Source of the DNA: an uncultured Clostridia bacterium
Lineage (GTDB): Bacteria > Bacillota > Clostridia > Oscillospirales > Ruminococcaceae
NCBI GenBank assembly: GCA_947627465.1
Contig: CANQWD010000028.1
Location: 1-34,926, forward strand
Length of the DNA: 34,926 nucleotides
Direction of reading: 5' to 3'
Positions within the stretch are counted from its first letter, which is position 1; every line of letters starts with the position of its first letter. Below the pieces are notes generated by a model. That model ran no database searches and was not told the DNA's origin. It was given only the letters and a program-made list of their open reading frames with translations. Below are positions 147-33,580 of the stretch, in pieces. Both the position numbers and the translations under genes were made by a program.

Positions 147-3100
147 ATGGCACGAATTGACAAAGTGCGTGAAAATTACGAGGAAGTCACGGAAAGGCTG
201 TTTTCCGACAAGGCGGCGTTCGCGGAGTATCTGAAATTCGCGGGAAAGTTTTTTAAACTGCCCTCGGCGCAGAGTATGACGATATTCGGCGCAAATCCCA
301 ACGCCGTTATGGTTGCGGACTACGACACTTGGCAGAAATTCGGCAGACAGGTCAAGAGAGGTACATCAAGTATCGCGGTGCTTGACAACGGCGGCTTGAA
401 ACACTACTTTGACATCTCGCAAACGGCGGGCGGAAAAGTTCCGTATCAATGGTCGCTCGATAAGGGAACCGCCGCCGCATTGATTGAGGAAACATACGAA
501 AATGAGGGCAGACGTTTTCAATCGTTCGCGGGGTGTTTGAATTTTCTCGGCGCGGAGAAGGCGCGAGAAAATCTGACGAGTGCGGCTAATTCGCTCAACA
601 TTTCGGACGAAAAGCGCAAGCAATTTGATAAATCATTCACCTCAATGGCGCAGTATGTTATTGCGGCGCGTTGTGAATTGGGCGGCAATTTCAAGTACAA
701 CAGCACGGTGGATTTGTCCGCGCTCGATATGCTCAACAGCCGCGCCGAAAAGGAAAAATTGTGTGAATTCGTTCAGATAACGGCTAAATCCGTGCTGTTA
801 TCGTTAGAACATTCAATAAACAACATTATAATGCAAGGGAGGACTAACGATTATGGAAGAAATCAAACAGATATGGTGCGAGGAGGACAAGAAGTTCTAT
901 CCAGAAACCATAACGAAGAACGGCAGAACGTACAAACTCGATCCGCAGACGTTCGTGTATCTGGAGTAAATGGAGTTGGGTCTGACGGACGAGGAACAGG
1001 AGCTGATGAACGAGGACATCGGGCAGTACGGCGAGAAGTGGCGCAAGTTTATGACGGAGAATTACCCGGAAGTGATACCGTCGCTGCAAGGGCGGCTGAA
1101 GTGGGAGCTGATACCGCGCCAAATCGACAAGGAAGCGTTGGAGTATCGGGAAACTCTGCGGAAACAGTACGCGAAAGAGAACCCGCGCCCGACAACGTTC
1201 ACGGAAATAATGGAGTGGGAGAACACACTCGGAATGATGATAGACAGGGCGATAATGGAGGACATAGTGCTGAATTACCGCGAGTAAACGGCACGGAAAA
1301 AAGTGCCACATATGGCACAAGTTCACATCAAGTTAAAGCAGAGGAACATTCCCCTGCTTTTTCTTTATCCCCCGAACAGAAATATATTGCTGATAAGACA
1401 GCGGAAATTCTCGGCTACAATGCGGATAAATCGCTCGTTGATACAATATATAATAAGGTGTTTGGGTACGCTTACGACCTTAAAATACCGATTGAGCAAA
1501 TTCCCGAAGATGAATTAAACGACATAATTTCCGAAGTCGCAAATGGAAACGCAAAACGCGAAATTCCCGATGATTTGGATAAAATCTATGTTGACAAGGA
1601 GAGCGAAACCGTCCGAATGGTATACTATAATCTAGACAGCACGGCGGGCGGACAGCTTGTTTACAACGAGTTTGATTTTGACGATATAGCGAACGCGCTA
1701 ACTCACGAAAATCCGCTTGACTATATTCTCTCATCTTGCAAGCAAACTGCGCTTGATGTTGATATGGACGGATTTGACGGCGCGGCACGGGAATTTCTCG
1801 CCGATACCGAGGACTTTAATTCGCGTGACGAACATTATCTTGACAGGCTGTTCGCGCTTGCAGAGCCGACTTACACGATTTTGCAGCTTAAAGACGGCGA
1901 TGAAACGCGCGATTACCGTTTCGCGGATTTGTCGGAATTGGCGCAACGAGGTTTGAAAGTTGAGCGCGAAAATTACAACAAAATTTACAGCGGCAGACTG
2001 CAAAACGGTGAAACGCTCGAAGATATTTACACGAAATTCAACGTAAATATTCCCGAAGATTTTCGAGGACATTCGCTTTCAGTTGGGGACGTTATCGAGC
2101 TGCGGCAGAACGGAAAAACAGCGGCGCATTATGTTGACGGTTATGGTTTTGAGGAAATTCCCGATTTTGAAATTGAGAAAGTTCAGAACGAAAGTGTAGA
2201 TAAATTCAAGGTAAAAACCGCCGAGAGTTTTGTACCGATAAACGGCTTAACCGCGCCAAATATCGAGGATAATGTGCGCGAATATATTCAAGGAATTTTG
2301 GACGATAACAAAATCAACGCGCAGATTGTGGACTTGGCGGTTGTTGGTTCGCGGTCACGAAACCTCAACGGCGAAAATTCCGATTTGGATATTGTCGTTG
2401 AATTTAAGTCGGATTTGAAAGAGGACGCGCTGTTCAACATTCTGCACGAACAGTCTTTTGAAATTGGCGGCGTGACGGTGGATATTAACCCCATTCGCGC
2501 CGAAGAAACGGGGACGCTCGGCGAGTATTTGGAGAGTGCGGAAAAGACAATTTACGAAAATCACGAACGCAAAAAAGCAGAGGAAACGGACGAAATTATA
2601 AATGCTGTTCGCACGGGTAAAACCGCACTAATAAGCGAAAAAACGTCAGCCGAAGAAATTGTTTCCGACGCGAGAAAGAAGAATTTTACAAACGTTACTT
2701 TGCAGTTTAATGACGAACAAGGCTTTTATCTGACAGCCGATACCGATAAAATAAAAGGCGCGGTAATTACGGTTTTCGGAAGAAACGAACAGGCGGTACG
2801 CGATTATCTCGAAAAAAACGCCGAGCGAACTAAATTATCACAAATGTGGCACATAGCAACAAAAAACGGCGTGGGATATTTTGTAATTAACGCGCCGCTT
2901 TCGGTTTCAACAATGCCTGAAATTAGGGAAAAGTGCGATAAATACATTGTTGCCGCGACCGCGTTACATCACAGCGAGGACTATTTGAAAAAAAACAACA
3001 TCACATTTATAAAACTCCAACGGGACATTTCACAAAGCGTTTTTGAGAAAAGTCCCGATGAAATAATTTCCGCAATGGATTTAGCGGAAAAGAATGTGCA

Positions 3101-6100
3101 GAAATCGGCGCAAACAATTCAATTCGGCTTGCTCGGCAACGGCGTAACGGTTTACGACACTTCAAAAACAGACGAGCAAACGCACGACTATCCCATTATC
3201 GCTCACATTTCCGCGGAGGGATTTATCAACTATCACGTTGATAAAAAATCGCTTAACGACGCGGATATTTCCCGTATCGAAAATCAAGCGGAGAGCGTTA
3301 AACAAGAGTTTTCCGAGCATTGGGAAAAGCTGCCGTTTGAGCAGAAATATCAGCAAATTCAAGACAAATCGGCAGGACTTTCAAAGCCGCAATGGGACGT
3401 GTTTTTCGCGGATAAAACCGCGTTGGACGGTGAAGCTCTTGTCAAAAAATACGAACGCGCACTCATTTTCGGTGATGAGAAATTCCCCGAAGCCGAAAAA
3501 ACGCTTACCGTTTACAGAGTCGGTGATTTTTACGAGATGTACAATGCTGATGTGCAAGTCGCGGCAGACCTCTTGAACCTCGCGCAGACCACTCGCCGCG
3601 GCGTTCCTATGGCGGGTTTTCCCGCGCACGTTCTTGACAATTACAAGCGAAATTTAGCTATGAACGGCTATCATTTGAAAATCGGAGATAGTCGTGAAAT
3701 TGAAAAAATATTCGCGAAAAACAAACCCGAAAAATCTCTCGATAAATTAAAAGTCGGCGATTTGGTGCGTAACAATAACGGCTTGTGGCGTATTACAAAA
3801 ATTGACGGAGATTTTTCAATTAACTTTGAAAACACCGACAAAACATCTAATGTAGCCGTACAATCCATTGTCGGGCATTGGAAAGAAGAATTTGAAAAGC
3901 GCGGTTTTGAGTATGTTTCGCCGTCCGAATTATCGGTTGATCAGCTCCGCGAAATAAATAATTCCGCGCCGAAAAAATCTCCGAAACCGCAAGTTGAACA
4001 AGCAAGCGGCGAACAGCTTAATCTTTTCGGAGAACCAATGCACGAAGTAGAAACTCCCGAAAAATCGTATGTCGGCGGTGTGGATATTGAGGAGGCTTTA
4101 AAACAAGACCTTATACAGCACGGAACATTGTTTCAAAGCGGAAAATTCCGTGTGGAAGAATTTTATAAATCTCACAAAGGTGATACAAAGGGATTTGCGA
4201 AATTTCTTGCGAAAGAGTACGGAATTGGCGGTCATTCGGGTGACGGAAACATCCAAAGTGTGGACTATAACGGCAAGGGAATTCAAATCAGAATTAGGCT
4301 CGATAACGGCGAGGACACAAAGGTTAATTGGAGTTGGAAAAAGGTCGCAAACCGCATTGCAACGCTGATTGACAAGGGCGAATACATCACTCCGCGAGAT
4401 ATTGAAAATCGCATTAAATACGCGAAAGCCGACTACAATCATTATGAGCAAGGCACGGAGGAATATGTCCGCGCCGCGAAAATTCTTGATGAATATGGTT
4501 TGCTCCAGACCGAAAATCAGCAATCGGAACTTGAACGCGCCAAAGAACTGATAAACGATTTTTGCGAACGTGAATACGACAGCGTGGCGGATTTTTCGGA
4601 TTTGTCGCGCGTTCCGATTGCGTACACCGAAGATGAGGAAACGGGCTTGCCGATAAATGTTTATGCCGATTTGGAAAAATTTCAAATCGTGTCGGAATTT
4701 AACAACGTTTCCGTAAAAGTTGACGAGTATAATTCCCTTGCGGAAATGAACGATAATGCTCTTTCGGAACTGAATTTTGACGAGCTGATACTCGATACAA
4801 TTACGGCAAATGAGCGGCAAAAAGAAATTGAAAAGCCGTCAAAATCGGAGGATGAGCCGGTAAAATTAAAGTCGATAGTTATTGATTTAACGCCGAAACA
4901 AGAGCCGACTATTGACGTATCTAAAGCTGAACAGTCTAAACAGAAAAAAGCCGAAAAAGATTTCACGATAACCGATGAACATCTCGGCGAGGGTGGGGCA
5001 AAGGCGAAATATGCCGCGAATATCGCCGCTATAAAAACGCTGAAAACAATCGAGAGCGAAAACCGCGCGGCAACTCCCGAAGAACAGGAAACGCTTTCAA
5101 AGTACGTTGGTTGGGGCGGTATTCCGCAAGCGTTTGACAGCGAAAACAGTCAGTGGTCGAAAGAATACGGCGAACTTAAAGAGCTGCTTACGGAGGACGA
5201 ATACCGCGCCGCAAGCGGCTCTGTGTTAAACGCTCATTACACCTCTCCGACCGTCATTCACGCGATTTACAAAGGTTTGGAGAACCTCGGATTTGAAAGC
5301 GGAAATATATTAGAGCCGTCAATGGGCGTTGGAAACTTTTTCGGAGCAATGCCTGAAGAAATGCGGAAAAAGAGCAGCTTAAGCGGTGTTGAACTCGACA
5401 GCATTACGGGACGTATAGCGCAACAGCTATACCCGAACGCGGACGTGCAAATTAAAGGCTTTGAAAAAACAAACTTTTCCGATAACTTTTTTGATGTGGT
5501 TGTCGGTAACGTTCCGTTCGGAAGTTACGGCGTTTCGGACAAGAGATACAACCGCGAGAATTTTTTCATACACGATTATTTTATAGCGAAGTCGCTTGAT
5601 AAAGTTGCTCCCGGTGGCATTGTCGCGGTAGTTACCACAAAAGGAACGCTTGATAAGGAAAATCCGAGAGTGCGTGAGTATTTCGCCAAACGCGCGGATT
5701 TGGTGGGCGCAATTCGTCTGCCAAACAGTGCGTTTAAGGCAAACGCGGGAACGGAAGTCACATCTGATATTCTGTTTTTCCAAAAGCGCGAGGAAATGGC
5801 GGTCGAGCTGCCCGATTGGTGCTATGTTTCAAAAAATCCCGATGGCGTTCCCGTCAACAATTATTTTATTGACCACCCCGAAATGATACTCGGCATAATG
5901 AAACAGGGTATGGAATTTTCTATGTACGGCAACGCCAACGAAACGGCTTGCGTTCCGATTGAGGGCGAAAACCTTGCGGAACAGCTTGAAAAGGCGGTCG
6001 CAAATCTGAAACTCGATAACGCTCTCCGCATACATCGCGAACAGCGCGAACGCGAAGCAGGTGTTATTCCCGCAAAAGCGGACGTGCGGAATTTTACGTT

Positions 6101-8042
6101 TGCCGAAGTTGACGGCAAGATGTACTTCCGCGAAAACAACATTATGAAAGAGGTTGTTGACAAGAAAAACAAGCCGATTAAAGGCAAAAAACTTGAACGT
6201 TTAAAGGCTTTGAACGAGCTGCGGAAAACGTTCCGCACCATTCTTACGGCACAACAAAACGACTGCTCGGACGAGCAATTACAAGGATTGCAAAAAACGC
6301 TTAACCAACAGTATGACGCTTTTGTAAAGAAATTCGGCTACATCAACGACAGTGCGAATTATCAAGCGTTCGGAAAAGACGATGATTACAATTCGCTTTG
6401 CGCTTTGGAGGTCATTGACGAGGAAAATAAAACCGTCACGAAATCCGACTTTTTCAGCAAGCGCACGGTAAAGCATTTCACGGAAATTACGCACGTTGAC
6501 ACGCCGCAAGAGGCTATGTATGTTGCGATTGATACGCTCGGCAAGTTGGATATTGGATATATGTCAAAATTGTGCGGCAAAGAGCCGCTTGAAGTAATTG
6601 ACGTGCTGAAAGCCGATAATTTAATTTATCTGAACCCCTACAAGGCAAAATCTGAAAATGATTTAGAGGGTTGGGAAGAAGCGTCGGAATACCTTTCGGG
6701 CAACGTCAGAATTAAGCTGAAAGACGCGGAAAACGCGGCTAAAGACAATCCCGAATTTTCGCGTAACGTTGCGGCTTTACAGGCTGTTATTCCCAAAAGA
6801 ATTGAAGCAGGCGAAATTACGGCGCGTATCGGTGTGCATTGGGTTGACGTTGAGGACTACCAAAAATTTATTATGGAATACGCGAAGGCGCGTTTAGTAG
6901 AGCCGCTCCGCCGCACAATAAGCGGCGAGTACAAAATCGACCGCAAGGGTTGGGATAGAAGTGCGGCGGCTACTCAAATTTTCGGCACAAAGCGTTTTAC
7001 CGCGCTTGAAATTTTTGAAAATCTGCTGAATTGCCGTGATGTGGTTGTTCGCGACAAGGTTTACGACCAAACCGCGGGCAGAGAAATTTATGTGATAAAC
7101 AAAACCGAAACGGAACTCGCGCAAGATAAGGCAAACAAAATGAAAGCCGAGTTTGCACGGTGGCTGTGGTCTGACCCCGATCGCCGAGAAAAATACGTCA
7201 CGCGATATAACGAATTGTTTAATTCGATAGTCGGTAGAAAATACGACGGCTCTCATCAGACTTTCCCCGATATGTCACCTTATATAAAGCTGAAACCGCA
7301 CCAGCTTGATGCTATTGCCCGCGCGAAATTCGGCGGCAACACGCTATTAGCGCATTGCGTTGGCGCGGGAAAATCGTTTGAAATGGTCGCGGCTACAATG
7401 GAGAAAAAACGGCTCGGTTTGATAAATAAGGCTTGTGTTGTTGTTCCGAAAAATCTTGTCGGACAAATGGCAAACGAGTGGTTAAGGCTTTATCCGCAAG
7501 CGAAAATTTTAACGGCTACTGAAAAAGATTTCGACAAAACGCACCGTCAAAAATTTATCGGTCGGTGCTGCACGGGCGAGTACGACGCGGTTATTATGAG
7601 TTATGAGCAGTTTGAAAAAATTCAAATGTCATTTGAATACCGCCGCGATTTCATTCAGCGCGAGATTGATACTCTCACGGAAGGTATAGACAAGTTGCAA
7701 GCCGATTACCGTTCGGCGCGTGATAATCGCGGCTCTATAAAAGATATGGAGCGCGCAAAAAAGTCGCTTGAGAAAAAACTCGAAAAGCTTATAAACGATA
7801 ACGGAAAGTCAAAGGACACTTCGCTCAATTTTGAGCAATTAGGCTTTGACAGCATAGTCGTTGACGAAGCGCACAACTACAAAAACGGCTTGGTGGTTAC
7901 GAAAATGAACCGAGTTGCGGGAGTGCAGACTACACCCGCGCAAAAGAGCGAGGACATCTTGATGAAAACGCAATATCTCAATGAAAATTACGGCGAAAGA
8001 AATATAATTTTTGCTACGGGAACGCCCAACCACACACTCTAA
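147..8042 (+). CDS. Giant ICE methylase/SNF2 helicase protein, N-terminal fragment
   Basis: This is the 5' piece (2,631 aa) of a host-ICE protein in the LtrC-like/ArdC-methylase-helicase group. Visible domains are: an ArdC-like N-terminus (residues about 1-90); a low-complexity insert (236-381); a YodL-like domain (576-675); a nucleotidyltransferase-like fold with GSRSR at 734 and SDLD at 745-748; a MutS domain-I-like segment (1123-1178); an N6-adenine methyltransferase core with LEPSMGVGNFFG from 1722 and NVPFG at 1788 in place of NPPY; and SNF2 helicase domain 1 with VGAGKS (2405-2410), VDEAH (2572-2576) and FATGTP. The frame then enters element 1 and adds only NHTL before a stop. The second helicase domain is therefore missing and the fragment is probably inactive as a motor. 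A DNA-processing or protective role in conjugation is known for relatives; here it is inferred. Confidence 0.9.
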   Translation: MARIDKVRENYEEVTERLFSDKAAFAEYLKFAGKFFKLPSAQSMTIFGANPNAVMVADYDTWQKFGRQVKRGTSSIAVLDNGGLKHYFDISQTAGGKVPYQWSLDKGTAAALIEETYENEGRRFQSFAGCLNFLGAEKARENLTSAANSLNISDEKRKQFDKSFTSMAQYVIAARCELGGNFKYNSTVDLSALDMLNSRAEKEKLCEFVQITAKSVLLSLEHSINNIIMQGRTNDYGRNQTDMVRGGQEVLSRNHNEERQNVQTRSADVRVSGVNGVGSDGRGTGADERGHRAVRREVAQVYDGELPGSDTVAARAAEVGADTAPNRQGSVGVSGNSAETVREREPAPDNVHGNNGVGEHTRNDDRQGDNGGHSAELPRVNGTEKSATYGTSSHQVKAEEHSPAFSLSPEQKYIADKTAEILGYNADKSLVDTIYNKVFGYAYDLKIPIEQIPEDELNDIISEVANGNAKREIPDDLDKIYVDKESETVRMVYYNLDSTAGGQLVYNEFDFDDIANALTHENPLDYILSSCKQTALDVDMDGFDGAAREFLADTEDFNSRDEHYLDRLFALAEPTYTILQLKDGDETRDYRFADLSELAQRGLKVERENYNKIYSGRLQNGETLEDIYTKFNVNIPEDFRGHSLSVGDVIELRQNGKTAAHYVDGYGFEEIPDFEIEKVQNESVDKFKVKTAESFVPINGLTAPNIEDNVREYIQGILDDNKINAQIVDLAVVGSRSRNLNGENSDLDIVVEFKSDLKEDALFNILHEQSFEIGGVTVDINPIRAEETGTLGEYLESAEKTIYENHERKKAEETDEIINAVRTGKTALISEKTSAEEIVSDARKKNFTNVTLQFNDEQGFYLTADTDKIKGAVITVFGRNEQAVRDYLEKNAERTKLSQMWHIATKNGVGYFVINAPLSVSTMPEIREKCDKYIVAATALHHSEDYLKKNNITFIKLQRDISQSVFEKSPDEIISAMDLAEKNVQKSAQTIQFGLLGNGVTVYDTSKTDEQTHDYPIIAHISAEGFINYHVDKKSLNDADISRIENQAESVKQEFSEHWEKLPFEQKYQQIQDKSAGLSKPQWDVFFADKTALDGEALVKKYERALIFGDEKFPEAEKTLTVYRVGDFYEMYNADVQVAADLLNLAQTTRRGVPMAGFPAHVLDNYKRNLAMNGYHLKIGDSREIEKIFAKNKPEKSLDKLKVGDLVRNNNGLWRITKIDGDFSINFENTDKTSNVAVQSIVGHWKEEFEKRGFEYVSPSELSVDQLREINNSAPKKSPKPQVEQASGEQLNLFGEPMHEVETPEKSYVGGVDIEEALKQDLIQHGTLFQSGKFRVEEFYKSHKGDTKGFAKFLAKEYGIGGHSGDGNIQSVDYNGKGIQIRIRLDNGEDTKVNWSWKKVANRIATLIDKGEYITPRDIENRIKYAKADYNHYEQGTEEYVRAAKILDEYGLLQTENQQSELERAKELINDFCEREYDSVADFSDLSRVPIAYTEDEETGLPINVYADLEKFQIVSEFNNVSVKVDEYNSLAEMNDNALSELNFDELILDTITANERQKEIEKPSKSEDEPVKLKSIVIDLTPKQEPTIDVSKAEQSKQKKAEKDFTITDEHLGEGGAKAKYAANIAAIKTLKTIESENRAATPEEQETLSKYVGWGGIPQAFDSENSQWSKEYGELKELLTEDEYRAASGSVLNAHYTSPTVIHAIYKGLENLGFESGNILEPSMGVGNFFGAMPEEMRKKSSLSGVELDSITGRIAQQLYPNADVQIKGFEKTNFSDNFFDVVVGNVPFGSYGVSDKRYNRENFFIHDYFIAKSLDKVAPGGIVAVVTTKGTLDKENPRVREYFAKRADLVGAIRLPNSAFKANAGTEVTSDILFFQKREEMAVELPDWCYVSKNPDGVPVNNYFIDHPEMILGIMKQGMEFSMYGNANETACVPIEGENLAEQLEKAVANLKLDNALRIHREQREREAGVIPAKADVRNFTFAEVDGKMYFRENNIMKEVVDKKNKPIKGKKLERLKALNELRKTFRTILTAQQNDCSDEQLQGLQKTLNQQYDAFVKKFGYINDSANYQAFGKDDDYNSLCALEVIDEENKTVTKSDFFSKRTVKHFTEITHVDTPQEAMYVAIDTLGKLDIGYMSKLCGKEPLEVIDVLKADNLIYLNPYKAKSENDLEGWEEASEYLSGNVRIKLKDAENAAKDNPEFSRNVAALQAVIPKRIEAGEITARIGVHWVDVEDYQKFIMEYAKARLVEPLRRTISGEYKIDRKGWDRSAAATQIFGTKRFTALEIFENLLNCRDVVVRDKVYDQTAGREIYVINKTETELAQDKANKMKAEFARWLWSDPDRREKYVTRYNELFNSIVGRKYDGSHQTFPDMSPYIKLKPHQLDAIARAKFGGNTLLAHCVGAGKSFEMVAATMEKKRLGLINKACVVVPKNLVGQMANEWLRLYPQAKILTATEKDFDKTHRQKFIGRCCTGEYDAVIMSYEQFEKIQMSFEYRRDFIQREIDTLTEGIDKLQADYRSARDNRGSIKDMERAKKSLEKKLEKLINDNGKSKDTSLNFEQLGFDSIVVDEAHNYKNGLVVTKMNRVAGVQTTPAQKSEDILMKTQYLNENYGERNIIFATGTPNHTL
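853..969 (+). CDS. Small ORF overlapping the giant gene, upstream of tnpV-like ORF
   Basis: This 38-aa ORF begins MEEIKQIWCEEDKKFYPET and lies in the +1 frame wholly inside the giant gene. GGGAGG at 837-842 is a good ribosome binding site 10 bases before the ATG. Its TAA (967-969) directly abuts the ATG of the tnpV-like ORF in the same frame, so the two could be translationally coupled, or could be a single ORF split by one stop codon. I do not recognise a family. Translation is inferred from the RBS and the protein-like composition. Confidence 0.45.
   Translation: MEEIKQIWCEEDKKFYPETITKNGRTYKLDPQTFVYLE
970..1287 (+). CDS. tnpV: TnpV-like transposon-encoded protein, overprinted in the giant gene
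   Basis: This is a 105-aa ORF in the +1 frame inside the giant gene. It resembles the TnpV family of small proteins carried by clostridial transposons: an IGQYGEKW-like segment near residue 17, a charged helical middle, and a C-terminal MEW...M..D.A..DIVLN segment. Over the same bases the giant frame reads as Gly/Arg/Asp/Asn-rich low complexity (residues 275-381). That suggests this frame is the constrained one and the giant protein tolerates whatever results. The start is the ATG directly after the TAA of the upstream small ORF, with GGAG at 963-966 very close to it. The role of TnpV is not established. Confidence 0.6.
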   Translation: MELGLTDEEQELMNEDIGQYGEKWRKFMTENYPEVIPSLQGRLKWELIPRQIDKEALEYRETLRKQYAKENPRPTTFTEIMEWENTLGMMIDRAIMEDIVLNYRE

Positions 8043-8098
8043 CAACTCAATTCAATAACTTCCCCGACCGCCTGATTGGGGATTTTTAATGCAACATT
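8040..8098. other. Left end of element 1 (attL arm)
   Basis: This non-coding stretch lies between the broken giant gene and the recombinase stop codon. It carries the TAACAAC arm (8040-8046) of the inferred attP. A weak CCCC...GGGG hairpin followed by ATTTTT (about 8063-8087) could stop transcripts coming from the giant gene. Confidence 0.55.
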
Positions 8099-9652: not shown

Positions 9653-9673
9653 AATTCGACCTCCAAAAAAGTA

Positions 9674-9728: not shown

Positions 9729-9736
9729 GCGGTTAT

Positions 9737-9889: not shown

Positions 9890-9898
9890 TAGCAGCCC

Positions 9899-10282: not shown

Positions 10283-10314
10283 AATGAAATACCTCCAAAA
10301 ATTTCTCAAGCCAC

Positions 10315-21528: not shown

Positions 21529-21529
21529 T

Positions 21530-23320: not shown

Positions 23321-23324
23321 AAAC

Positions 23325-24365: not shown

Positions 24366-24415
24366 AATGTACTCCTCTTTTCTTTAGGGAAAACCGCCCT
24401 CGGTCGGCAGTCTCT

Positions 24416-24669
24416 TTAAGGCAACACCGCACAAAGACCGCGCTGCGCGCTTTGCCGCCCGCTTGCTTGCATATTTTAGCGTGACCTTTGGTCACTCGGT
24501 CATTTTTGCCAAAAACTCCTTGAAATACGACAGTATTCCTGCGTCGTTTTTGGCAATCTGACGAAAAATCTGACTGCGCAATCGGACGTGATCTCCCCCG
24601 GTGGGGGAGGTGTCGCGCAGCGACAGAGGGGCTGACCGACAGACCAATCTTTGTGCGGTGTTGCCTTAA
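24416..24669. mobile_element. MITE-like repeat, 254 bp, in the lacI leader
   Basis: Perfect 22-base inverted repeats starting TTAAGGCAACACCGCACA (24416-24437) end the element and return reversed at 24648-24669. The interior includes further inverted segments (GCCAAAAAC... near 24508 and ...GTTTTTGGC near 24550; CTCCCCC/GGGGGAG at 24593-24609). It has no ORF. I recall similar GGCAACACCGCACAAAG repeats scattered in Ruminococcaceae genomes, which should be checked by search. The outer TTAA may be a target duplication. Confidence 0.85.
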
Positions 24670-24674
24670 CATAA

Positions 24675-24731
24675 AGTATATCACAATACGGTAATTATTT
24701 CAATAGAAAAACCGGTAAAGTAACCGGTTTT
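24675..24731 (-). promoter_or_regulatory. lacI promoter and operator pair
   Basis: On the minus strand TTGAAA (24698-24703) and TATACT (24675-24680) are 17 bases apart. Just upstream, AAAACCGGT (24708-24716) and ACCGGTTTT (24723-24731) form an inverted repeat; the two CCGG cores are 12 bases apart. The predicted start is at the edge of the MITE, so the MITE would be transcribed as leader RNA. Confidence 0.75.
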
Positions 24732-24802
24732 GTTGATTTCCTCCAAATTATGCTCTCGTTTCTTGTTATTTATAACAAAAATAAAAAAATCAGAAAAAAC
24801 TC

Positions 24803-24866
24803 TTGACAAACGTGTTGAAATGGTGTATTATGTAATCACAAAGTAACCGGTTACTTTACCGGTTAC
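24803..24866 (+). promoter_or_regulatory. Sucrose operon promoter and operator pair
   Basis: TTGACA (24803-24808), a 17-base spacer and TATTAT (24826-24831) precede the 16-base palindrome AAGTAACCGGTTACTT (24841-24856). A second TTACCGGTTAC (24856-24866) lies with its CCGG 12 bases further on. The operators cover the transcription start, as expected for LacI-type repression. The pair is 135 bases from the matching pair at the lacI promoter, which would allow looping. Confidence 0.85.
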
Positions 24867-24899
24867 GAGAACGCGAATATTTTTAGTAAGGAGGACGCA

Positions 24900-26219: not shown

Positions 26220-27112
26220 TGAAAAAGAACAGAGCTAATTCTATTATGGGAATGGCGTTTTTCGGACCCGCGCTGGTTCTGCTGACGGTGTTCCTGTTTA
26301 TCCCGATGATCCTCACGGTCATTTACAGCTTTACGGATTATTTCGCGCTCAGTCCCGCAACGACGCATTTCGTAGGACTGGAGAATTTCGGTAAGATATT
26401 TAAGGACGAACTGTTTATGCAGTCGTTCGGGAACACGGTAAAATTCGTGCTGATAATCGTGCCGCTGCAATGTCTTGGCGCGTTGGGATTGGCACTGCTT
26501 ATCAACAAGGTCACATATTGCAAGAAGTATTTCAAGGTCGCGTTTTTCGTACCGGTAGTTATGTCACTGGCGGTCGTATCAACGCTTTGGATGCAGATCT
26601 ACAGCCCCGAGGGTATTTTGAACACCGTACTTACCAATATGGGATTTGACCCGCAGCCGTTTATCCACAGCACTGATCAGGCGCTGCCCTCCATTGCAAT
26701 AATGAGCGCGTGGCAGGGCATGGGATATCAGATGATAATCTTCCTCGGCGGCTTGCAGGCAATAAATCCCGCGCTATATGAAGCGGCGGAAATGGATCAC
26801 GCGAGTGCGTGGAAGAAGTTTAAAGACATCACGCTCCCAGAGCTTAAGCCGCTTTGCGTGTTCGTATTCATTACGGTGACTATAGGCGCGTTCAGAATGA
26901 TCGTTCAGCCGATGGTAATGACGGGCGGCGGACCTTCAAATTCCACATACACTATCGTATATGACATATACGAAACAGGCACAGTAAACTGGGAAATAGG
27001 GCTTGCTTCAGCAATGGCGGTCGTATTCGTGATTTTCGTAGTGATACTTACGATCATTCAGAATGTGCTGACCAAGGATAAGGAGGACAAACATGAAAAC
27101 AAGAAAAAGTAA
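26216..27112 (+). CDS. ABC sugar importer permease (MalF/UgpA-like)
   Basis: The product (298 aa) has about six membrane segments and the cytoplasmic EAA loop EAAEMDHASAWKKFKDITLPELKP that contacts the ATPase. The N-terminal segment FFGPALVLLTVFLFIPMILTVIYSF is typical of the family. It overlaps the binding-protein gene by ATGA and the next permease gene by 20 bases, so translation is coupled. Confidence 0.93.
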   Translation: MMKKNRANSIMGMAFFGPALVLLTVFLFIPMILTVIYSFTDYFALSPATTHFVGLENFGKIFKDELFMQSFGNTVKFVLIIVPLQCLGALGLALLINKVTYCKKYFKVAFFVPVVMSLAVVSTLWMQIYSPEGILNTVLTNMGFDPQPFIHSTDQALPSIAIMSAWQGMGYQMIIFLGGLQAINPALYEAAEMDHASAWKKFKDITLPELKPLCVFVFITVTIGAFRMIVQPMVMTGGGPSNSTYTIVYDIYETGTVNWEIGLASAMAVVFVIFVVILTIIQNVLTKDKEDKHENKKK

Positions 27113-27944
27113 GGTGCTTGGAATAATACTTGTTGTCGTCATGATAATTCTTTCGCTGCTGTTTCTGTTCCCCGTGGTGTGGATGATAGCGAACTCTTTT
27201 AAGGGCGACGCGGCGATAACGGCAGATATGAACACGATACAAGCGTTCGTTCCGCCCGCTCCCGGAAAGGGCTTTTTTAACAACTATGTTTCCATTATCA
27301 CCGATACGAATTTTTTGAGATATATGCTCAACACGCTGTTCTACGCTGCACTGCTGATCGTGCTCGGTGTCGTTGTGAATGGTCTTGCGGGATATGCTCT
27401 GGCGAAGATAAAATTTCCGTTTCGAGATAAATGGCTGATGATCATAATGATGCTGATGATAATCCCGTCCGAAACGATAATTACGATCAATTTTCTTTTT
27501 ATCGCGAAGCTGGGACTGCTCAACACAGTAATCGGATATATTCTTCCTATGATCGTAAATCCGTTCAACATATTCCTTTTCAGACAGGTGTTCGTAAGTC
27601 TGCCCGACGACGTTTACGAGGCGGCGCAGCTCGATCATTGCGGACCGGTAAAATACTTCTTCACAATGGTGCTGCCCATGTCAAAGACCGTAGTAGCCAC
27701 TGTAAGCGTTTTCACATTTCTGAATGTATGGAACGACTATCTTTGGCCTTCGCTAGTCTTCACCTCAAGTGATCTGCTTACCACGCAGATAGGGCTTAAT
27801 TCCATAACATCAAACGAAAACACCACAATGGGGCAGACGCTTGCGGTAATAACGCTTATCACCATACCGGTCATTATAATTTATTCGCTGTTCTCGAAGC
27901 AGATCGTCGAGGGCGTAGTTTCAACGGGTTCAAAGGAGGGCTAA
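27093..27944 (+). CDS. ABC sugar importer permease (MalG/UgpE-like)
   Basis: This 283-aa inner-membrane protein pairs with the preceding one. The N-terminal membrane segment is ILVVVMIILSLLFLFPVVWMI, and the EAA loop is EAAQLDHCGPVKYFFTMVLPMSK. The later LNVWNDYLWPSL motif is characteristic of MalG-type permeases. AAGGAGG lies within the previous gene just ahead of ATG 27093. The ATPase gene follows after 3 bases. Confidence 0.93.
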   Translation: MKTRKSKVLGIILVVVMIILSLLFLFPVVWMIANSFKGDAAITADMNTIQAFVPPAPGKGFFNNYVSIITDTNFLRYMLNTLFYAALLIVLGVVVNGLAGYALAKIKFPFRDKWLMIIMMLMIIPSETIITINFLFIAKLGLLNTVIGYILPMIVNPFNIFLFRQVFVSLPDDVYEAAQLDHCGPVKYFFTMVLPMSKTVVATVSVFTFLNVWNDYLWPSLVFTSSDLLTTQIGLNSITSNENTTMGQTLAVITLITIPVIIIYSLFSKQIVEGVVSTGSKEG

Positions 27945-27947
27945 ATC

Positions 27948-29042
27948 ATGAGTTTTATCGAGCTTAAAAAAATCTGCAAGAAATATCCGAACGCCGCAAA
28001 AAATTCGGTGACGGATTTTAACCTTGAGATCAATGAAAAGGAATTCATCGCGTTTGTAGGACCGTCCGGCTGCGGAAAATCCACAACGCTTAGAATGATC
28101 GCGGGCTTTGAGGATATAACAAGCGGCGAGCTTTACATAGACGGTAAGCTGATGAACGAGGTCAAGCCTTGTGACAGAGGTATAGCCATGGTGTTTCAGA
28201 ACTACGCGCTGTATCCGCATATGACAGTCGAAAAGAACATCTCCTACGGACTTAAGAATATGAAGGTGCCTGCCGATAAAATAAAGGAAAAAGTCGATTG
28301 GGCTATCGACATATTAGGTCTTTCGGAATACCGTTACAGAAAGCCGAAAAACCTCTCGGGCGGTCAGCGCCAGAGGGTCGCGCTCGGACGCGCTATCGTC
28401 AAGGACTCAAAGGTGTTTCTCATGGACGAACCGCTCTCCAACCTCGACGCGAAACTGCGTGTCAGCATGAGAAACGAGATCAGCAAGCTTCACCGTGAGC
28501 TTGGCAGCACTACCATTTATGTTACTCACGATCAGGTCGAGGCAATGACCATGGCGGACAGGATCGTCATCATGAAGGATGGCGTTGTTCAGCAGGTCGG
28601 CAAGCCTATGGAGCTGTATGAACACCCTGTCAATAAGTTTGTCGCGGGATTTATCGGTTCGCCTCAGATGAATTTCTACGATGTGAGCATTGACGGCAAT
28701 ATCGTGAAATTCTCCGACGGCAAAACTATGAAGCTTCCCGAAAGCGTGATCTCGAAGCTTGGCGGGAAAACGTCGGGGCTGATACTTGGCATACGCGGCG
28801 AGGATATCAAGCTGGAAGCCCAGAGCCTTGACGTGTATAAAGACACCAAGCAGAGCGCGGTCATTGAAAACACCGAGGTCATGGGCAATGAAAATAATCT
28901 TTACTTTACATTCGGCGGTACGGTGACTATCGCGCGTGTATCAAAGTACGAAATAAGCCGTGTGGGTGATACGATAGAATTTGTATTCAATCCGTCGAGA
29001 ATACATTTCTTCGATAAGGAAACCGAAAACTGCTTGTTTTAA
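27948..29042 (+). CDS. ABC sugar importer ATPase (MsmK/UgpC-like)
   Basis: The product (364 aa) powers the importer. Walker A is GPSGCGKST (38-46), the signature is LSGGQ (136-140) and Walker B is LMDEP with D160/E161. The switch His lies in YVTHDQVEAMTMADRI. The C-terminal 130 residues form the TOBE-type regulatory domain found in MsmK/MalK. Many Firmicutes share one such ATPase among importers from a distant locus; here a dedicated copy is in the operon, making the cargo self-sufficient after transfer. Confidence 0.94.
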   Translation: MSFIELKKICKKYPNAAKNSVTDFNLEINEKEFIAFVGPSGCGKSTTLRMIAGFEDITSGELYIDGKLMNEVKPCDRGIAMVFQNYALYPHMTVEKNISYGLKNMKVPADKIKEKVDWAIDILGLSEYRYRKPKNLSGGQRQRVALGRAIVKDSKVFLMDEPLSNLDAKLRVSMRNEISKLHRELGSTTIYVTHDQVEAMTMADRIVIMKDGVVQQVGKPMELYEHPVNKFVAGFIGSPQMNFYDVSIDGNIVKFSDGKTMKLPESVISKLGGKTSGLILGIRGEDIKLEAQSLDVYKDTKQSAVIENTEVMGNENNLYFTFGGTVTIARVSKYEISRVGDTIEFVFNPSRIHFFDKETENCLF

Positions 29043-29052
29043 GGAGAATACC

Positions 29053-30333
29053 ATGCGAGAGATTCACTTGAAAGCCCCGCGCGGCTGGATAAATGACCCC
29101 AACGGATTTATATATTTCAATGGGAAATACCACCTGTTCTATCAGCATTTCCCGTATGCTCCCAAATGGGGAAGAATGCACTGGGGACACGCGGTAAGCC
29201 GCGACCTTACAAATTGGGAGCATAAAGATATAGCATTATTTCCGACCAAGCTTGACGACAAGGACGGCTGCTTCTCTGGGAGTGCCGTCGAGTTGGACGG
29301 CAGGCTTCATCTGTTCTATACGGGAGTAAAATACAGCGTTTACGATCCCGAGAATATAAATTGTTGTCTGAATGATCAATTCATTTCGGCGCAGCTCCAT
29401 ATTTCCTCCAAGGACGGATACTGCTTTGACAATTTTGGAGGAAAAGAAACGATAATCCCGCCTCTTGAAGATCCCGAGATCGGCGACAGGTCGCACACCC
29501 GCGATCCTAAGGTCTGGCACGGCGCAAATGGCGAATGGCACATGATCCTCGGTAGCACGGCTCACGGAAAAGGTAAGTTTTTGTTCTATACAAGCCGCGA
29601 CCTTGTTCATTGGGAATACAAAAATTCCTATTCCAAGGACGGGCTTGGCTGGATGTGGGAGTGTCCCGATTACTTCACCGTTGACGGAAAAGGTGTTGTG
29701 ATTTTCTCTCCCATGGGACTTGCGAACGGACAGCAGGCAATGTGCGCGGCGGCGGAATTTGACGAAAGCACCTGCGAAATGTCTCTCTCGGACAGCGTTC
29801 AATATTTCGACTGCGGACTTGATCTTTACGCGCCGCAGAGTACGTTGGATAAAGACGGCAGACGCGTGGTTATAGCATGGCTGAGGATGCCCGAGCCTAT
29901 GAAAAACGGTGCGATCGGAATGTTCTCCATTCCCAGAATTTGCGAGGTCAAAGACGGGCACATCTTCTTCAAGCCCCATCCCGATATTAGCAAAAAATTC
30001 ACGCGAAAGACCGATGTGCCCGAGAAGATATATATGGTTCGTTCAACGCTAGAAAACGGCGGCGTTTTGAATGTCGGAGGGTTTGAGATATATCCGGAAA
30101 ACGGTAAACTCGTTACCGACAGATCGGCGGTAAACCGCGGTGGAGAACAGTTCCCGGATAGAAGTGAAACGCCGCCGATCGGTGAGAAATGTACGCTTGA
30201 GATATACGTTGACGAAAATATTATCGAGGTGTTTGTAAACGGCGGAGAATATGTAATTACAAACGCGGTATACGGTCTGACGGATAAGATTTCGGGCGGC
30301 ATAGATACCGAGATCTTCGCAATGGAGGAATGA
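29053..30333 (+). CDS. GH32 sucrose/fructoside hydrolase
   Basis: This 426-aa glycoside hydrolase family 32 enzyme splits a terminal beta-fructosyl bond. The nucleophile is Asp15 in WINDPNG, the transition-state stabiliser Asp151 in TRDPKVW, and the acid/base Glu203 in WECPD. A five-bladed propeller (about 1-300) is followed by a beta-sandwich (about 330-426, with LEIYVDENIIEVFVNGGEY). It has no signal peptide, so it acts in the cytoplasm on imported sugar. Uptake is by an ABC system, so the substrate is probably free sucrose or a fructo-oligosaccharide instead of sucrose-6-phosphate. I chose ATG 29053, with AAGGAG at 29041-29046, over an upstream start inside the ATPase gene. Confidence 0.93.
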   Translation: MREIHLKAPRGWINDPNGFIYFNGKYHLFYQHFPYAPKWGRMHWGHAVSRDLTNWEHKDIALFPTKLDDKDGCFSGSAVELDGRLHLFYTGVKYSVYDPENINCCLNDQFISAQLHISSKDGYCFDNFGGKETIIPPLEDPEIGDRSHTRDPKVWHGANGEWHMILGSTAHGKGKFLFYTSRDLVHWEYKNSYSKDGLGWMWECPDYFTVDGKGVVIFSPMGLANGQQAMCAAAEFDESTCEMSLSDSVQYFDCGLDLYAPQSTLDKDGRRVVIAWLRMPEPMKNGAIGMFSIPRICEVKDGHIFFKPHPDISKKFTRKTDVPEKIYMVRSTLENGGVLNVGGFEIYPENGKLVTDRSAVNRGGEQFPDRSETPPIGEKCTLEIYVDENIIEVFVNGGEYVITNAVYGLTDKISGGIDTEIFAMEE

Positions 30334-30335
30334 TC

Positions 30336-31304
30336 ATGACTAAGTTTGACGTGTGCGCGCTTGGCGAATTGCTGATAGATTTCACGGAAAACGGTGTAAG
30401 TCCCAAGGGCAATCCGCTTATGGAAGCCAATCCCGGCGGCGCTCCCTGCAATGTTCTCGCCATGCTGAACAAGCAGGGATATAAGACTGCCTTTATCGGG
30501 AAGATCGGTGATGATATTTTCGGGCGGCAGCTTCGCAAAACGGTCGAGAACATCGGCATTAACACCGAGGGGCTGATAACCGATAAGACCGTCAATACAA
30601 CTCTGGCGTTTGTTCATACCCTTGAGGGCGGCGACCGCGAGTTTTCGTTCTATAGAAACCCCGGCGCGGATATGATGCTGAACGAGAACGAGATAAACGA
30701 GAGCATTATCCAAAACAGCAGTATTTTTCATTTCGGTTCCTTGTCGATGACAAGCGAAATATGCGAAGCGGCTACCAAAAAGGCAGTATCGTTAGCGAAG
30801 AACTCGGGAGCTATAATATCGTTCGACCCTAATCTTCGCGAAAGCCTTTGGGATGATCTCGAAAAGGCGCGGGAAAAGATAGAATACGGTCTGGCGCACT
30901 GCGATATTCTGAAAATATCGGATAATGAGATATTGTGGCTGACCGGCAAGAACGATTTTGACGATGCCGTAAAAGCACTTCGCGAAAAGTACGCAAACAT
31001 CTCGCTGCTTCTTCTTTCACTCGGGAAGAACGGCAGCAGAGCATATTCAAAGAGCGGATCTGCCGTTGCGCCATGCGCTCCGGCAAAAACGATAGAAACA
31101 ACGGGCGCGGGGGATACATTCTGCGGGGCAGTACTCGGAAAGGTTCTCGAAAAAGGGCTTGCCGACTACTCCGACGGAGAGCTCCTGGAGATACTTGAAT
31201 TCGCCAACACCGCGGCGGGGATCATCACTGAACGAAAAGGCGCTCTGAAAGTAATGCCTGAGCTTTCGGAGATCTATGAAAGAATGGAGGAGCACAAACA
31301 ATGA
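30336..31304 (+). CDS. scrK: Fructokinase, PfkB family
   Basis: This 322-aa sugar kinase should phosphorylate the fructose released by the GH32 enzyme. It has the PfkB N-terminal signature NPGGAPCNVLAMLNKQGYKTAFIGKIGDD (about 32-60) and the C-terminal signature with the catalytic base Asp260 in TTGAGDTFCG. ATG 30336 is preferred to the in-frame ATG at 30330, because GGAGG at 30324-30328 leaves too little room for the earlier one. It follows the hydrolase by 2 bases and overlaps the HPr-like gene by 4. Confidence 0.9.
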   Translation: MTKFDVCALGELLIDFTENGVSPKGNPLMEANPGGAPCNVLAMLNKQGYKTAFIGKIGDDIFGRQLRKTVENIGINTEGLITDKTVNTTLAFVHTLEGGDREFSFYRNPGADMMLNENEINESIIQNSSIFHFGSLSMTSEICEAATKKAVSLAKNSGAIISFDPNLRESLWDDLEKAREKIEYGLAHCDILKISDNEILWLTGKNDFDDAVKALREKYANISLLLLSLGKNGSRAYSKSGSAVAPCAPAKTIETTGAGDTFCGAVLGKVLEKGLADYSDGELLEILEFANTAAGIITERKGALKVMPELSEIYERMEEHKQ

Positions 31305-31540
31305 CAGAATATCATATAAGCCTGCCTGATGTGGAGAGCGTCAAGTGTTTCGTAAATGCTGTTACACGTTTTGACTGCGATATAGATATCGTATCTGACA
31401 GATATGTAGTAGACGCGAAATCAATCATGGGTATTTTCAGTCTCAATCTCAGCAAACCTCTTTTGCTTAAAATAAATTCTTCCAACACCGATGAGGCGGA
31501 AGCTATAAGAGACGGAATAGCAGGATTTATTGTTGACTGA
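31301..31540 (+). CDS. HPr-like protein lacking His15 (Crh-like)
   Basis: This 79-aa protein has the HPr length and the regulatory-serine region VDAKSIMGIFSL, with Ser41 at the position of HPr Ser46. The segment that should hold GLHARP and the PTS phosphorylation His reads VESVKCFV instead, so it cannot accept phosphate from enzyme I. Bacillus Crh shows the same pattern: His15 replaced, Ser46 kept, used only as a catabolite-repression co-factor. It is the last gene of the operon, overlapping the kinase by ATGA. A role in CcpA-type signalling or in regulating the adjacent enzymes is inferred. Confidence 0.8.
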   Translation: MTEYHISLPDVESVKCFVNAVTRFDCDIDIVSDRYVVDAKSIMGIFSLNLSKPLLLKINSSNTDEAEAIRDGIAGFIVD

Positions 31541-31576
31541 ACATATATAAAAAATGAACAACAAAAGAAAGCTCAT

Positions 31577-31620
31577 AAAACGGATAGGGAGCATTATCGC
31601 CCTCTATCCGTTTTTGTTTT
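31577..31620. terminator. Bidirectional terminator between sucrose operon and SLOG gene
   Basis: AAAACGGATAG (31577-31587) pairs with CTATCCGTTTT (31604-31614), flanked by T runs in both directions. It ends the sugar operon on the plus strand and the SLOG gene on the minus strand. Its central 30 bases nearly match the terminator at 32452-32489. Confidence 0.85.
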
Positions 31621-31626
31621 ATCAAT

Positions 31627-32100
31627 TCATAACCGTATAATCTCCACCCCGCACCGTTCGGCGTAATTGACCGTGTAGAATGTTCCTCCGCTGTTTTGGC
31701 GCAGATAGCATATAAGAAAACCGCTGTGAGCGACCATATGGCGGTTTCGTTCAAGCATACAACTGTTTGTGTATTGCGGTGATAAGATACGAACCTTGTC
31801 GGCTCGTTCAAGAATAGAGTAATATCGCTTTTTCTGTTCGTCATTCCATTTCAGTGACTGCTGTTCGGGAGGGCAAGGCAGAACCATTACCAGCTTGATG
31901 TGTGGGTAGTCTTTCTTTAAGCGCATAACCGTTTCGGCAGCAAGAATATCAAAGCCGAGTGCTCCGCCGTTTCCAAAGAATACAACACCCCATTCTATCA
32001 ACTCTGTAACAGCCCTCTCTAAATCGGCTTGCAATTCGGTACTGTCGGGCGGCAAATTGCGATGCCCCGAAAAGCACGCCACTTTTGTTTTATTTATCAT
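31627..32100 (-). CDS. SLOG-family protein (DUF1273/YpsA-like)
   Basis: The product (157 aa) has a Rossmann-like SLOG fold: an N-terminal ACFSGHRNLP strand-turn, a GNGGALGFDILAAETVMRLKKDYPHIKLVMVLPC core, and a C-terminal part with ERNRHMVAHSGFLICYLRQNSGGT. SLOG proteins of this type bind nucleotides or nucleotide-derived ligands and are often found in phage and mobile elements, some in defence contexts. It is divergent from a small XRE gene with operator-like repeats between them, so the pair is probably one regulatory or defence module. The actual function is unknown. Confidence 0.82.
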   Translation of the reverse strand: MINKTKVACFSGHRNLPPDSTELQADLERAVTELIEWGVVFFGNGGALGFDILAAETVMRLKKDYPHIKLVMVLPCPPEQQSLKWNDEQKKRYYSILERADKVRILSPQYTNSCMLERNRHMVAHSGFLICYLRQNSGGTFYTVNYAERCGVEIIRL

Positions 32101-32131
32101 AGACTTCTCCTTTTTGATTATACTACTTTAT

Positions 32132-32186
32132 ATTATAGGACTATCTGTCCTAATTGTCAATAGGACATATTGTACTGTATTATAAT
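32132..32186. promoter_or_regulatory. Divergent SLOG/XRE promoter with TAGGAC operators
   Basis: The minus-strand promoter is TTGACA (on 32155-32160), 17 bases, TATAAT (on 32132-32137). The plus-strand promoter is probably TTGTCA (32154-32159), 18 bases, TATTAT (32178-32183). TAGGAC half-sites form an inverted repeat at 32136-32152 (TAGGACTATCTGTCCTA), with a third copy at 32161-32166. These are likely binding sites for the XRE protein. Confidence 0.75.
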
Positions 32187-32206
32187 TAACAAGAGGTGAG
32201 AAATTT

Positions 32207-32419
32207 ATGATATTAAGGATAAAAGACTTACGAGAAGATAACGACTTAACGCAGTCACGAGTCGCCGAAATATTGATGTGCGACCAATCACTTTACTCTA
32301 AATATGAACGGGGCGAAAGAGAGATACCGCTTAAACTTTTGGTCAGACTTGCCGAACATTACAATGTGAGCCTTGATTACTTGGTTGGAAGAACCAACAA
32401 AAAAGAAATCAATGAATAA
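32207..32419 (+). CDS. Small XRE-family regulator
   Basis: This 70-aa protein is almost entirely a Cro/CI helix-turn-helix (LRIKDLREDNDLTQSRVAEILMCDQSLYSKYERGEREIPLKLLVRLAEHYNVSLDYLVGRTNK). GAGGTGAG lies before ATG 32207. It is divergent from the SLOG gene and is expected to bind the TAGGAC repeats between them. It is not related to the XRE proteins at 10454 and 20748 beyond the shared fold. Confidence 0.88.
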   Translation: MILRIKDLREDNDLTQSRVAEILMCDQSLYSKYERGEREIPLKLLVRLAEHYNVSLDYLVGRTNKKEINE

Positions 32420-32451
32420 ATTACATTGAAATTATCATATGTCTTAAAAAG

Positions 32452-32489
32452 AAAAAGGATAGGGAGCATTACCACTCTCTATCCTTTTT
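32452..32489 (+). terminator. Terminator after the small XRE gene
   Basis: AAAAAGGATAGGGAG (32452-32466) pairs with CTCTCTATCCTTTTT (32475-32489), 14 of 15 bases. It is a near-copy of the terminator at 31577-31620 and is the last feature before the right end of element 2. Confidence 0.85.
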
Positions 32490-32539
32490 ATTATGTCAAC
32501 ATACTCGATTGCCCCGCGTTCCGTAAAACACGTTCAACT

Positions 32540-33580
32540 GATTTGGAGCAGCGCATTGGCAGAATTGTTCGTCAAGGCAACGAAAACAGCGAGGTCGGAA
32601 TTTTCAATTACGTCACCAAAGACACTTTCGATGCGTATATGATGAACATAATCGTCACAAAGCAGAAGTTCATCTCGCAGTTGATGAGCGGAGATACTTC
32701 GGCGCGTTCTTGTGAGGACGTTGACGAAATGGTTTTGAATTACACCGAAATGCAAGCGTTGGCAACGGGCGATCCGCGCATTAAGGAGAAGATAGAACTC
32801 GATACGGACGTTGCACGTCTGAAAATGCTTGAAAGCGAACATTACAACGAGCAGTACCGCCTTGACGATACAATCAAGAACGCGGAAATCGGCATAAAAA
32901 ATACCGAGCATAACATCACGGCGGCAAGGGAAGATGTTGAATTTGCGAAAGCGCACACATTACCCGAAGATGAATTCCGAATTGAAATTAAAGGCAAGCT
33001 CTACACGGAGCGCAAGGCGGCGGGCGAAGCTCTGCGGAAAGAAGCAACGGCTTTCCTCGCAAACAGCAACGGAACAATTCATTTGCCGATTGGAACTTTC
33101 CGCGGCTTTGAGTTGGCGATTGAAAGAGGTCACGCTACCTTTGGCGGTCAAACCGTTGAGGTCGCTGTGCGGCACGGAATAACTTACAGCGCAACTCTCG
33201 ACATCACGGGCGATATAGGAAACGTAACGCGGCTTGAAAACCTCGTTAATGACGGTATCGGTAAAAAACTCACAAAAATGGAAGAAAGCCTTAAAACTTT
33301 GCAAGGAGATTTAAAAGCGGCATTGGAGAGCAGGGGTAAACCTTTTGAACACGCGGAGGAACTTGAAACGAAAACCAAACGTCTTAATCAGCTTAACCTT
33401 GAACTTGAGGTCGGCAAAACGGACGAAGTAATTATGAACGACAGCGAGGATGAAAACGAAAACAGGGATAATCCCGAACAGGACGCTCCCGAACACAACA
33501 ATCCCGAACACGATAATTCGGAACACGATGGTTCAAGCCCGGATCGCGACAAGCCCAAACCGCCGCACGGCAGACGTTAA
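32540..33580 (+). CDS. Giant ICE helicase protein, C-terminal fragment
   Basis: Host sequence resumes at the GA core. It encodes the last 346 residues, starting DLEQRIGRIVRQGNENSEV (helicase motif VI with its arginine fingers). Next come an alpha-helical region with coiled-coil character (about 95-145 and 240-285), a GTFRGFELAIERGHATFGG segment, and an acidic Pro/Glu/His/Asp tail with short repeats (NPEQDAPEHNNPEHDNSEHDG). The upstream open frame back to 32426 runs through a terminator and the element end and is not a real N-terminus. Once rejoined with the other two fragments the protein is 3,265 aa. Confidence 0.87.
   Translation, partial: DLEQRIGRIVRQGNENSEVGIFNYVTKDTFDAYMMNIIVTKQKFISQLMSGDTSARSCEDVDEMVLNYTEMQALATGDPRIKEKIELDTDVARLKMLESEHYNEQYRLDDTIKNAEIGIKNTEHNITAAREDVEFAKAHTLPEDEFRIEIKGKLYTERKAAGEALRKEATAFLANSNGTIHLPIGTFRGFELAIERGHATFGGQTVEVAVRHGITYSATLDITGDIGNVTRLENLVNDGIGKKLTKMEESLKTLQGDLKAALESRGKPFEHAEELETKTKRLNQLNLELEVGKTDEVIMNDSEDENENRDNPEQDAPEHNNPEHDNSEHDGSSPDRDKPKPPHGRR

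Follow-up and report, generated by a model that had tools for sequence, protein, structure and literature searches.

The stretch of DNA analysed here (the window, 34,926 bases) is one whole contig, C28, of the draft genome of an uncultured Clostridia bacterium of the Ruminococcaceae (G000; 2.52 Mb in 52 contigs), and it ends inside a hairpin resembling an origin of transfer (oriT). It contains a giant snf2-type gene split into three pieces, two inserted elements and, behind the gene, a DUF3991/Toprim gene. Very probably, we are dealing with an integrative and conjugative element (ICE) of the type IV secretion system (T4SS) type whose giant snf2-type gene, located near the oriT, was entered by two integrative elements with serine recombinases. 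This reading is carried by the anatomy of the stretch, the 2-bp cores at the element ends, uninterrupted homologues of the gene, the repeated use of both insertion sites in other genomes and the hairpins, and precise excision of both elements would give back the gene. The snf2-type gene spans positions 147-33580 and is interrupted at an AC core (site 1) and at a GA core (site 2), as listed below.

147..8023, + strand: piece 1, with YodL, MutS_I, a weak methylase signal and the first half of an SNF2-like helicase; AC core in motif III at its end
8024..17477: element 1, 9,454 bp including one core copy; oriT-like hairpin, no relaxase found
8022-8023 and 17476-17477: core AC of element 1, left and second copy
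17478..18359, + strand: piece 2, between motif III and motif VI; GA core at its end
18360..32541: element 2, 14,182 bp including one core copy; candidate integrative and mobilizable element (IME) at the snf2 site
18358-18359 and 32540-32541: core GA of element 2, left and right copy
32542..33580, + strand: piece 3, remainder of motif VI through the stop

Piece 1 belongs to the open reading frame (ORF) 147-8042, and homology to its relatives is lost past 8023; piece 2 follows the frame of 17479-18360 and piece 3 that of 32540-33580. None of the three pieces contains an internal stop codon. Piece 1 matched the Pfam models YodL, MutS_I, a nucleotidyltransferase model and ResIII over their cut-offs, and Eco57I and SNF2 below them. 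The 9,798 bases obtained by summing the pieces of a first-pass annotation, made from the sequence alone, correspond to 3,265 codons plus a stop, which is arithmetic on coordinates, as the pieces were kept separate throughout.

The pieces were aligned one by one to 34 homologous loci, using natural uninterrupted homologues instead of the 3,265-aa virtual protein. Joint 1 was uninterrupted in 29 of these loci, with exactly one codon from the end of piece 1 to the start of piece 2, joint 2 was uninterrupted in 28, where pieces 2 and 3 were contiguous, and 24 of the 34 loci ran through both joints. The proposal of the first-pass annotation that a single ICE-type gene had been interrupted twice was thus borne out by homologues aligning across both joints and by pieces lacking internal stops. 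Among the 10 loci failing at a joint, L010 carried a 9.3-kb insertion exactly at site 1 while its site 2 was empty, L013 and L016 showed a junction at site 2, L018 was broken near residue 450, and L027 and L029 contained group II introns inside the gene (Rfam); in the other four (L012, L033, L042, L043) one outer piece had no match or the locus was cut short. In the uninterrupted reference homologue P0001 (L011:2645-5170, 842 aa), the joints lie close to residues 401 and 699. Site 1, when aligned to solved SNF2 remodellers, falls in the TGTP stretch and site 2 in a stretch which is weak when taken alone, and these we take to be motif III and motif VI, respectively. The Pfam Helicase_C match spans residues 649-711 of the uninterrupted homologue, and thus covers the stretch of site 2. 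The earlier placement of the two elements in conserved helicase motifs therefore agrees with this alignment, weakly so for motif VI.

The ends of the elements were compared by taking both ends of each as separate 24-mers beside the core and scoring their inverted match against 20,000 shuffles. The end arms of element 1 are inverted copies around AC at 17 of 24 positions (shuffles as good, 0 of 20,000), and those of element 2 are inverted copies around GA at 15 of 24 positions (1 of 20,000). The same test gave 20/24 for site 1 of L010 (0 shuffles as good), 16/24 for site 2 of contig C20 of G394, the genome of L010 (1), and 17/24 for site 2 of G371 (0). Dyad arms around a 2-bp core are the anatomy expected for serine-recombinase attachment sites, and both elements of the window have it. 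Each also has a large serine recombinase at one end:

8099..9652, - strand: large serine recombinase of element 1 (Resolvase, Recombinase, Zn ribbon)
18383..20077, - strand: large serine recombinase of element 2, with DUF4368; 23 bp separate its end from the left junction

The two integrases share only 27% identity. Both the joining of the pieces at 2-bp cores and the independence of the two serine-recombinase elements, as originally suggested, found support in the symmetry of the element ends centred on AC and GA and in these unlike enzymes. It is hardly conceivable that the assembly joined different replicons at 8023, 17477, 18359 or 32541: although the genome is a draft in 52 contigs and the window is a whole contig ending inside an oriT-like hairpin, each junction is the centre of a dyad formed by the element ends, and the junctions recur elsewhere, site 1 in L010 and G299 and site 2 in G299, G371 and an Enterococcus faecalis plasmid.

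The use of both sites was followed in 394 sampled genomes of the order, with at most two candidates scored per genome, so that copies can be missed. A match to the gene at E 1e-30 was obtained in 92 of the 394 genomes. Out of 119 gene pieces (resting on 144 match rows), 99 span site 1, 97 span site 2 and 88 span both. Junctions recognised by sequence were found at site 1 in four genomes (G000, G299, G181, G108) and at site 2 in six (G000, G299, G371, G340, G178, G124), counts which would be too low if some of the further shortened pieces left out of them (such as G008, G045, G091, G119, G139, G204, G279, G293, G317, G347) are insertions. Site 2 is also cut in G394 C20. The following were excluded from the junction counts: G048, a short local duplication; G219, where likeness begins at residue 684, ahead of the core; G213, G272 and G288, where the piece begins or stops at a contig end or close to one; and G318 (L099), where a group II intron lies in the same helicase gene (Rfam). 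In G181 the contig ends about 47 bp beyond the cut at site 1, and in G108 site 1 is cut in a 35% homologue, with no relative of either integrase in the 19 kb fetched. G299, of the same genus as the window, has a left junction at site 1, where its contig ends, with a 68% relative of the integrase, and a right junction at site 2 with a 69% relative of the integrase there, which makes double occupancy likely in that genome. Insertions at the two sites thus recur in other genomes. Presence of a site in most relatives, which the first-pass annotation argued from its place inside a catalytic motif, does not mean that the site is mostly filled (junctions at site 1 in 4 and at site 2 in 6 of 394 genomes). 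A junction near residue 453 was seen in two genomes (G151, locus L104; G282, locus L106), with a serine recombinase related to the integrases beside each; together with L018, these loci mark a further insertion place around residues 450-453.

At site 1, a comparison is offered by L010. Its gene resembles that of the window (93% identity for the piece 2 protein, and about 85% for the DNA left of site 1), and its site-1 element encodes an integrase 64% identical in amino acids to that of element 1, plus a relaxase, but DNA similarity between the two elements was found solely in the integrase region (69%). Because the genes are alike while the similarity of the elements is confined to the integrase region, site 1 was most likely filled separately in the window and in L010.

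The relatives of the site-1 integrase raise the possibility that element 1 is a generalist which landed where the T-P-V codons spell a short target, with no tie to conjugative elements. Among the site-1 integrases of at least 60% identity examined, window included, three of five lie in this snf2 gene and two of five elsewhere; L010 was found through the gene and hence is no independent count among the three. In G280, an integrase 98.5% identical (460 aa compared) to the site-1 enzyme of G299 lies in an ABC-permease-like gene at GGGAACGCCCGT, and in the genome of the window a 54% relative lies in a lipoprotein-like gene at GGAAACGCCTGT, one junction being seen in each of these two cases. G280 (L187, around 10240) belongs to another genus than G299, and the 98.5% identity suggests a recent transfer across genera. 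A further relative (67%) on the Ruminococcus albus plasmid pRUMAL01 is split in two ORFs, with no snf2 match within 5 kb. These three cases favour a generalist, whereas the three of five members in this gene speak against it, as does the fact that element 1 carries the hairpin stem of its own ICE; we regard a generalist as quite possible, though somewhat less probable than its opposite. The relatives of the element 2 integrase with 67% and 69% identity (G394 C20 and G299, respectively) both lie at site 2, but of the 19 loci L074-L092 retrieved for this integrase, only two had a snf2 match in the fetched stretch.

Three oriT-like hairpins are present in the window:

11288..11380, - strand: hairpin of element 1, with the same stem as the ICE hairpin at the right end of the contig
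21530..21580, + strand: hairpin of element 2, which has its own stem; upstream of the relaxase gene
34844..34926, + strand: hairpin of the ICE; the contig ends in it

Their folding z scores range from -5.8 to -10.1. The hairpin of element 1 is followed by the same letters as those after the ICE hairpin (34844-34926). The stems of element 2 and of the ICEs of L010 and L017 differ from the stem common to element 1 and its own ICE. In our reading, element 1 has imitated or captured an oriT, by which the ICE relaxase would mobilise it. No relaxase family was recognised in the ten element 1 ORFs scanned, a scan which a family of another, unknown type could escape, and tblastn with three related relaxases returned nothing better than E 0.7 inside the element. 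With its own integrase and no relaxase found, element 1 would fall among the iOriT elements or mobilizable genomic islands (MGIs), defined as integrated and having an oriT but no relaxase in passages of PMC11389934 and PMC7563491. Element 1 is like them in its integrase, its oriT-like hairpin and the lack of a detected relaxase, and unlike those described there it sits inside the very ICE whose hairpin stem it carries. Its cargo comprises:

11547..12753, + strand: genes for an extracytoplasmic function (ECF) sigma factor and for a DUF4367 protein, perhaps an anti-sigma factor
12832..17329, + strand: five proteins without a Pfam family at E 0.001, plus an ABC ATPase (16688-17329) whose best NCBIfam match, below cut-off, is to lantibiotic-protection ATPases

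Element 2 has its own integrase and a relaxase (Pfam), an oriT-like hairpin and no T4SS family among the ORFs scanned, and would thus qualify as an IME in the wide sense. Its further genes are:

21674..23320, + strand: Mob_Pre (PF01076) relaxase, E 8.1e-17
23325..24365, - strand: LacI-family regulator, cargo
24900..31304, + strand: sugar operon, with a binding protein, two permeases, a MalK-like ATPase, a GH32 hydrolase and a PfkB kinase

Over 524 aa, the relaxase shares 74% identity with that of the ICE of the relative L010. In the site-2 element of G394 C20 the relaxase is oriented opposite to that of the window.

IMEs in the snf2 gene of Tn5252-type ICEs have been published (PMC5357655, PMC7168690, PMC9815147, PMC12479173). 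According to passages of these papers, the streptococcal ones have a Ser_3 integrase, a MobV/PF01076 relaxase and often tet(O), 147 IMEs are counted in SNF2 in Streptococcus suis (PMC12479173), and an 11-bp end repeat, TTTTGCGGACA, is reported for the S. suis snf2 cargoes (PMC9815147). This repeat lies at both ends of the elements of G371 and of the E. faecalis plasmid LR962153.1, and at left ends in G340, G178 and G124. The plasmid carries a tet(O) element at site 2, with an integrase identical to that of G371. Since the G371 and E. faecalis elements at site 2 carry the published repeat, site 2 very probably corresponds to the snf2 site already known for IMEs. Insertion at residue 699/700 of the reference homologue is common to the window, G371 and the LR962153.1 element, a match based on alignments of these three, with no S. 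suis record among them. Element 2 resembles the streptococcal snf2 IMEs in its serine integrase beside one end, its PF01076 relaxase and its location in an ICE snf2 gene. It differs from them in the lack of TTTTGCGGACA (0 copies in the window on both strands), in having the integrase at the other end, in its sugar operon and in its integrase, which shares 47% identity with that of G371; because the repeat is missing, element 2 was filed as a relative, not a member, of this class. The integrase lies at the opposite element end in G299, G371 and the E. faecalis plasmid (L094 829-2503 versus 18383-20077 in the window), the GA core being kept. Inverted insertion via a palindromic core was considered to account for this arrangement and rejected, as the dyad centre GA is not palindromic.

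Passengers at two sites of one ICE gene are also on record. Parts of PMC5704250 describe IME_Sco1050_traG_site1 and IME_Sco1050_traG_site2, two IME sites in the ICE gene traG. As in that case, a single ICE gene of the window is occupied twice, by serine-integrase elements at different sites; there it is the gene of the VirD4 coupling protein, whereas here it is the snf2 gene, to which motif III adds a further site. Serine-integrase IMEs in snf2, traG and maff2 of Tn5252-type ICEs are described in passages of PMC5357655 and PMC5704250, together with the hypothesis that they exit upon induction of conjugation, and the transfer of ICESp2905 with two IMEs is mentioned. For Tn1806-like ICEs located in snf2 of ICESa2603-family ICEs, PMC12942858 reports that the composite conjugates and that the inner element also does so by itself. 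These share with the window a serine-integrase element nested in an ICE snf2 gene, but they are whole ICEs with triple serine integrases and GG borders, while the cores of the window are AC and GA. No account of the motif III site, or of a single snf2 gene occupied by two elements of this kind, was met in the open-licence literature searched. Site 1 may already be known under another description, as the passages at hand do not give the exact snf2 positions of the streptococcal IMEs or of Tn1806.

Elements 1 and 2 have one module in common:

10101..11233: element 1 copy, with an XRE regulator (10436-11044) and a leader resembling the stretch ahead of the ICE oriT
20396..21528: element 2 copy, with an XRE regulator (20610-21338) and a leader

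This 1.13-kb module is 83% identical in DNA between the two elements, and the XRE proteins are 87.6% identical in amino acids; outside it, a single match of 29 bases was found between the elements. Such a module suggests an exchange between the passengers and would permit, though it does not prove, a shared control. One could go further and picture a two-lock switch, in which the elements are co-regulated through their similar XRE proteins and the helicase gene opens only once both have left, in the manner of developmentally excised elements. The 83% identity of the module and the fact that the cores keep the frame at both sites would fit such a switch, but the module may merely reflect exchange between neighbours and only one of the two sites is filled in L010, and we consider the idea very improbable.

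The conjugative nature of the host element is judged from its relatives. One contig of G394 encodes VirD4, a VirB4-type ATPase, a topoisomerase, SpoVG/DUF3849 and the snf2 gene, and also has a homologue of the DUF3991 gene, an oriT-like hairpin and a Mob_Pre relaxase; in G299 and G371, VirD4 and VirB4 lie upstream of the gene on the same contig. In the window, the backbone of the ICE continues behind piece 3 with one gene:

33732..34703, + strand: DUF3991/Toprim_2 gene

The genome of L010 has another copy of the snf2 gene, which is broken and carries a site-2 element (L131, G394 C20, 664-9500). Elsewhere in the genome of the window (C30, 27820-32437), three serine recombinase genes stand in a row, one of them with an in-frame stop.

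Several points weigh against our interpretation. The assembly to which the window belongs has no VirB4 match and, for VirD4, just a 240-aa fragment, so the ICE of the window is deduced from its relatives and may be incomplete. No ICE relaxase was found in this genome, where the best match beyond element 2 is a partial one of 51% (C11), and the contig of the window ends in the ICE oriT. We infer the oriT status of the hairpins from the fold, its place and its likeness; the middle gene piece of G299 was not found in its assembly; and element 1 could be immobile. Moreover, the tie of element 1 to ICEs is doubtful because site-1 integrases also lie outside snf2 genes. Taken to the extreme, the ICE would be dead and both elements fossils in a decayed composite, from which nothing is restored in life. 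The missing VirB4 match, the VirD4 fragment and the broken gene copy with its site-2 element in G394 C20 are in line with decay. On the other hand, draft assemblies often lack contigs that carry mobile elements, no internal stop disrupts the three pieces, each integrase matches its family across the domains expected of it, and the hairpins are intact, so that we hold a decayed composite to be rather unlikely. The view put forward in the first-pass annotation, that cargo elements parasitise conjugative elements by residing inside them, stands in part: the ICE-type gene, the unlike integrases, the likeness of the relaxases and the ICE-type hairpin stem agree with it, but the idea is already published, integrases of the site-1 family also occur outside ICE genes and the presence of an ICE in this genome rests on relatives.

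Returning to the preferred reading of an ICE gene entered twice, each integrative element would have entered by its own serine recombinase at its own 2-bp core. Element 2 would be a relative of the snf2 IMEs with its own integrase, oriT-like hairpin and PF01076 relaxase, seated in the motif VI codons and bringing cargo for sugar use. Element 1, whose hairpin stem matches that of the ICE and for which no relaxase was found, would depend on the ICE relaxase or one related to it for mobilisation in trans. The elements would exit at or before conjugation, use the transfer channel of the ICE and insert into the gene again once in the recipient; their XRE regulators, which closely resemble each other, may take part in the timing. 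A more elaborate picture is hitchhiking at three levels, with the helicase gene locked by two passengers, one having its own relaxase and the other a copied ICE oriT stem, both tied to ICE activation through XRE regulators and all released together; we think this improbable.

These results extend the nesting of IMEs in ICE snf2 genes to gut-type Clostridia, add a further site (motif III) used by another integrase family and provide a natural case of two passengers in one gene. Beside this second site, the point that stands out is a passenger in which no relaxase was detected and whose hairpin has the stem found in the oriT-like hairpin of its vehicle. With this arrangement one can test if passengers of this kind put their vehicle out of action or simply use it for the ride. 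The case further suggests that stretches of protein kept constant by catalysis may be lasting DNA targets, for serine-recombinase elements and group II introns alike.

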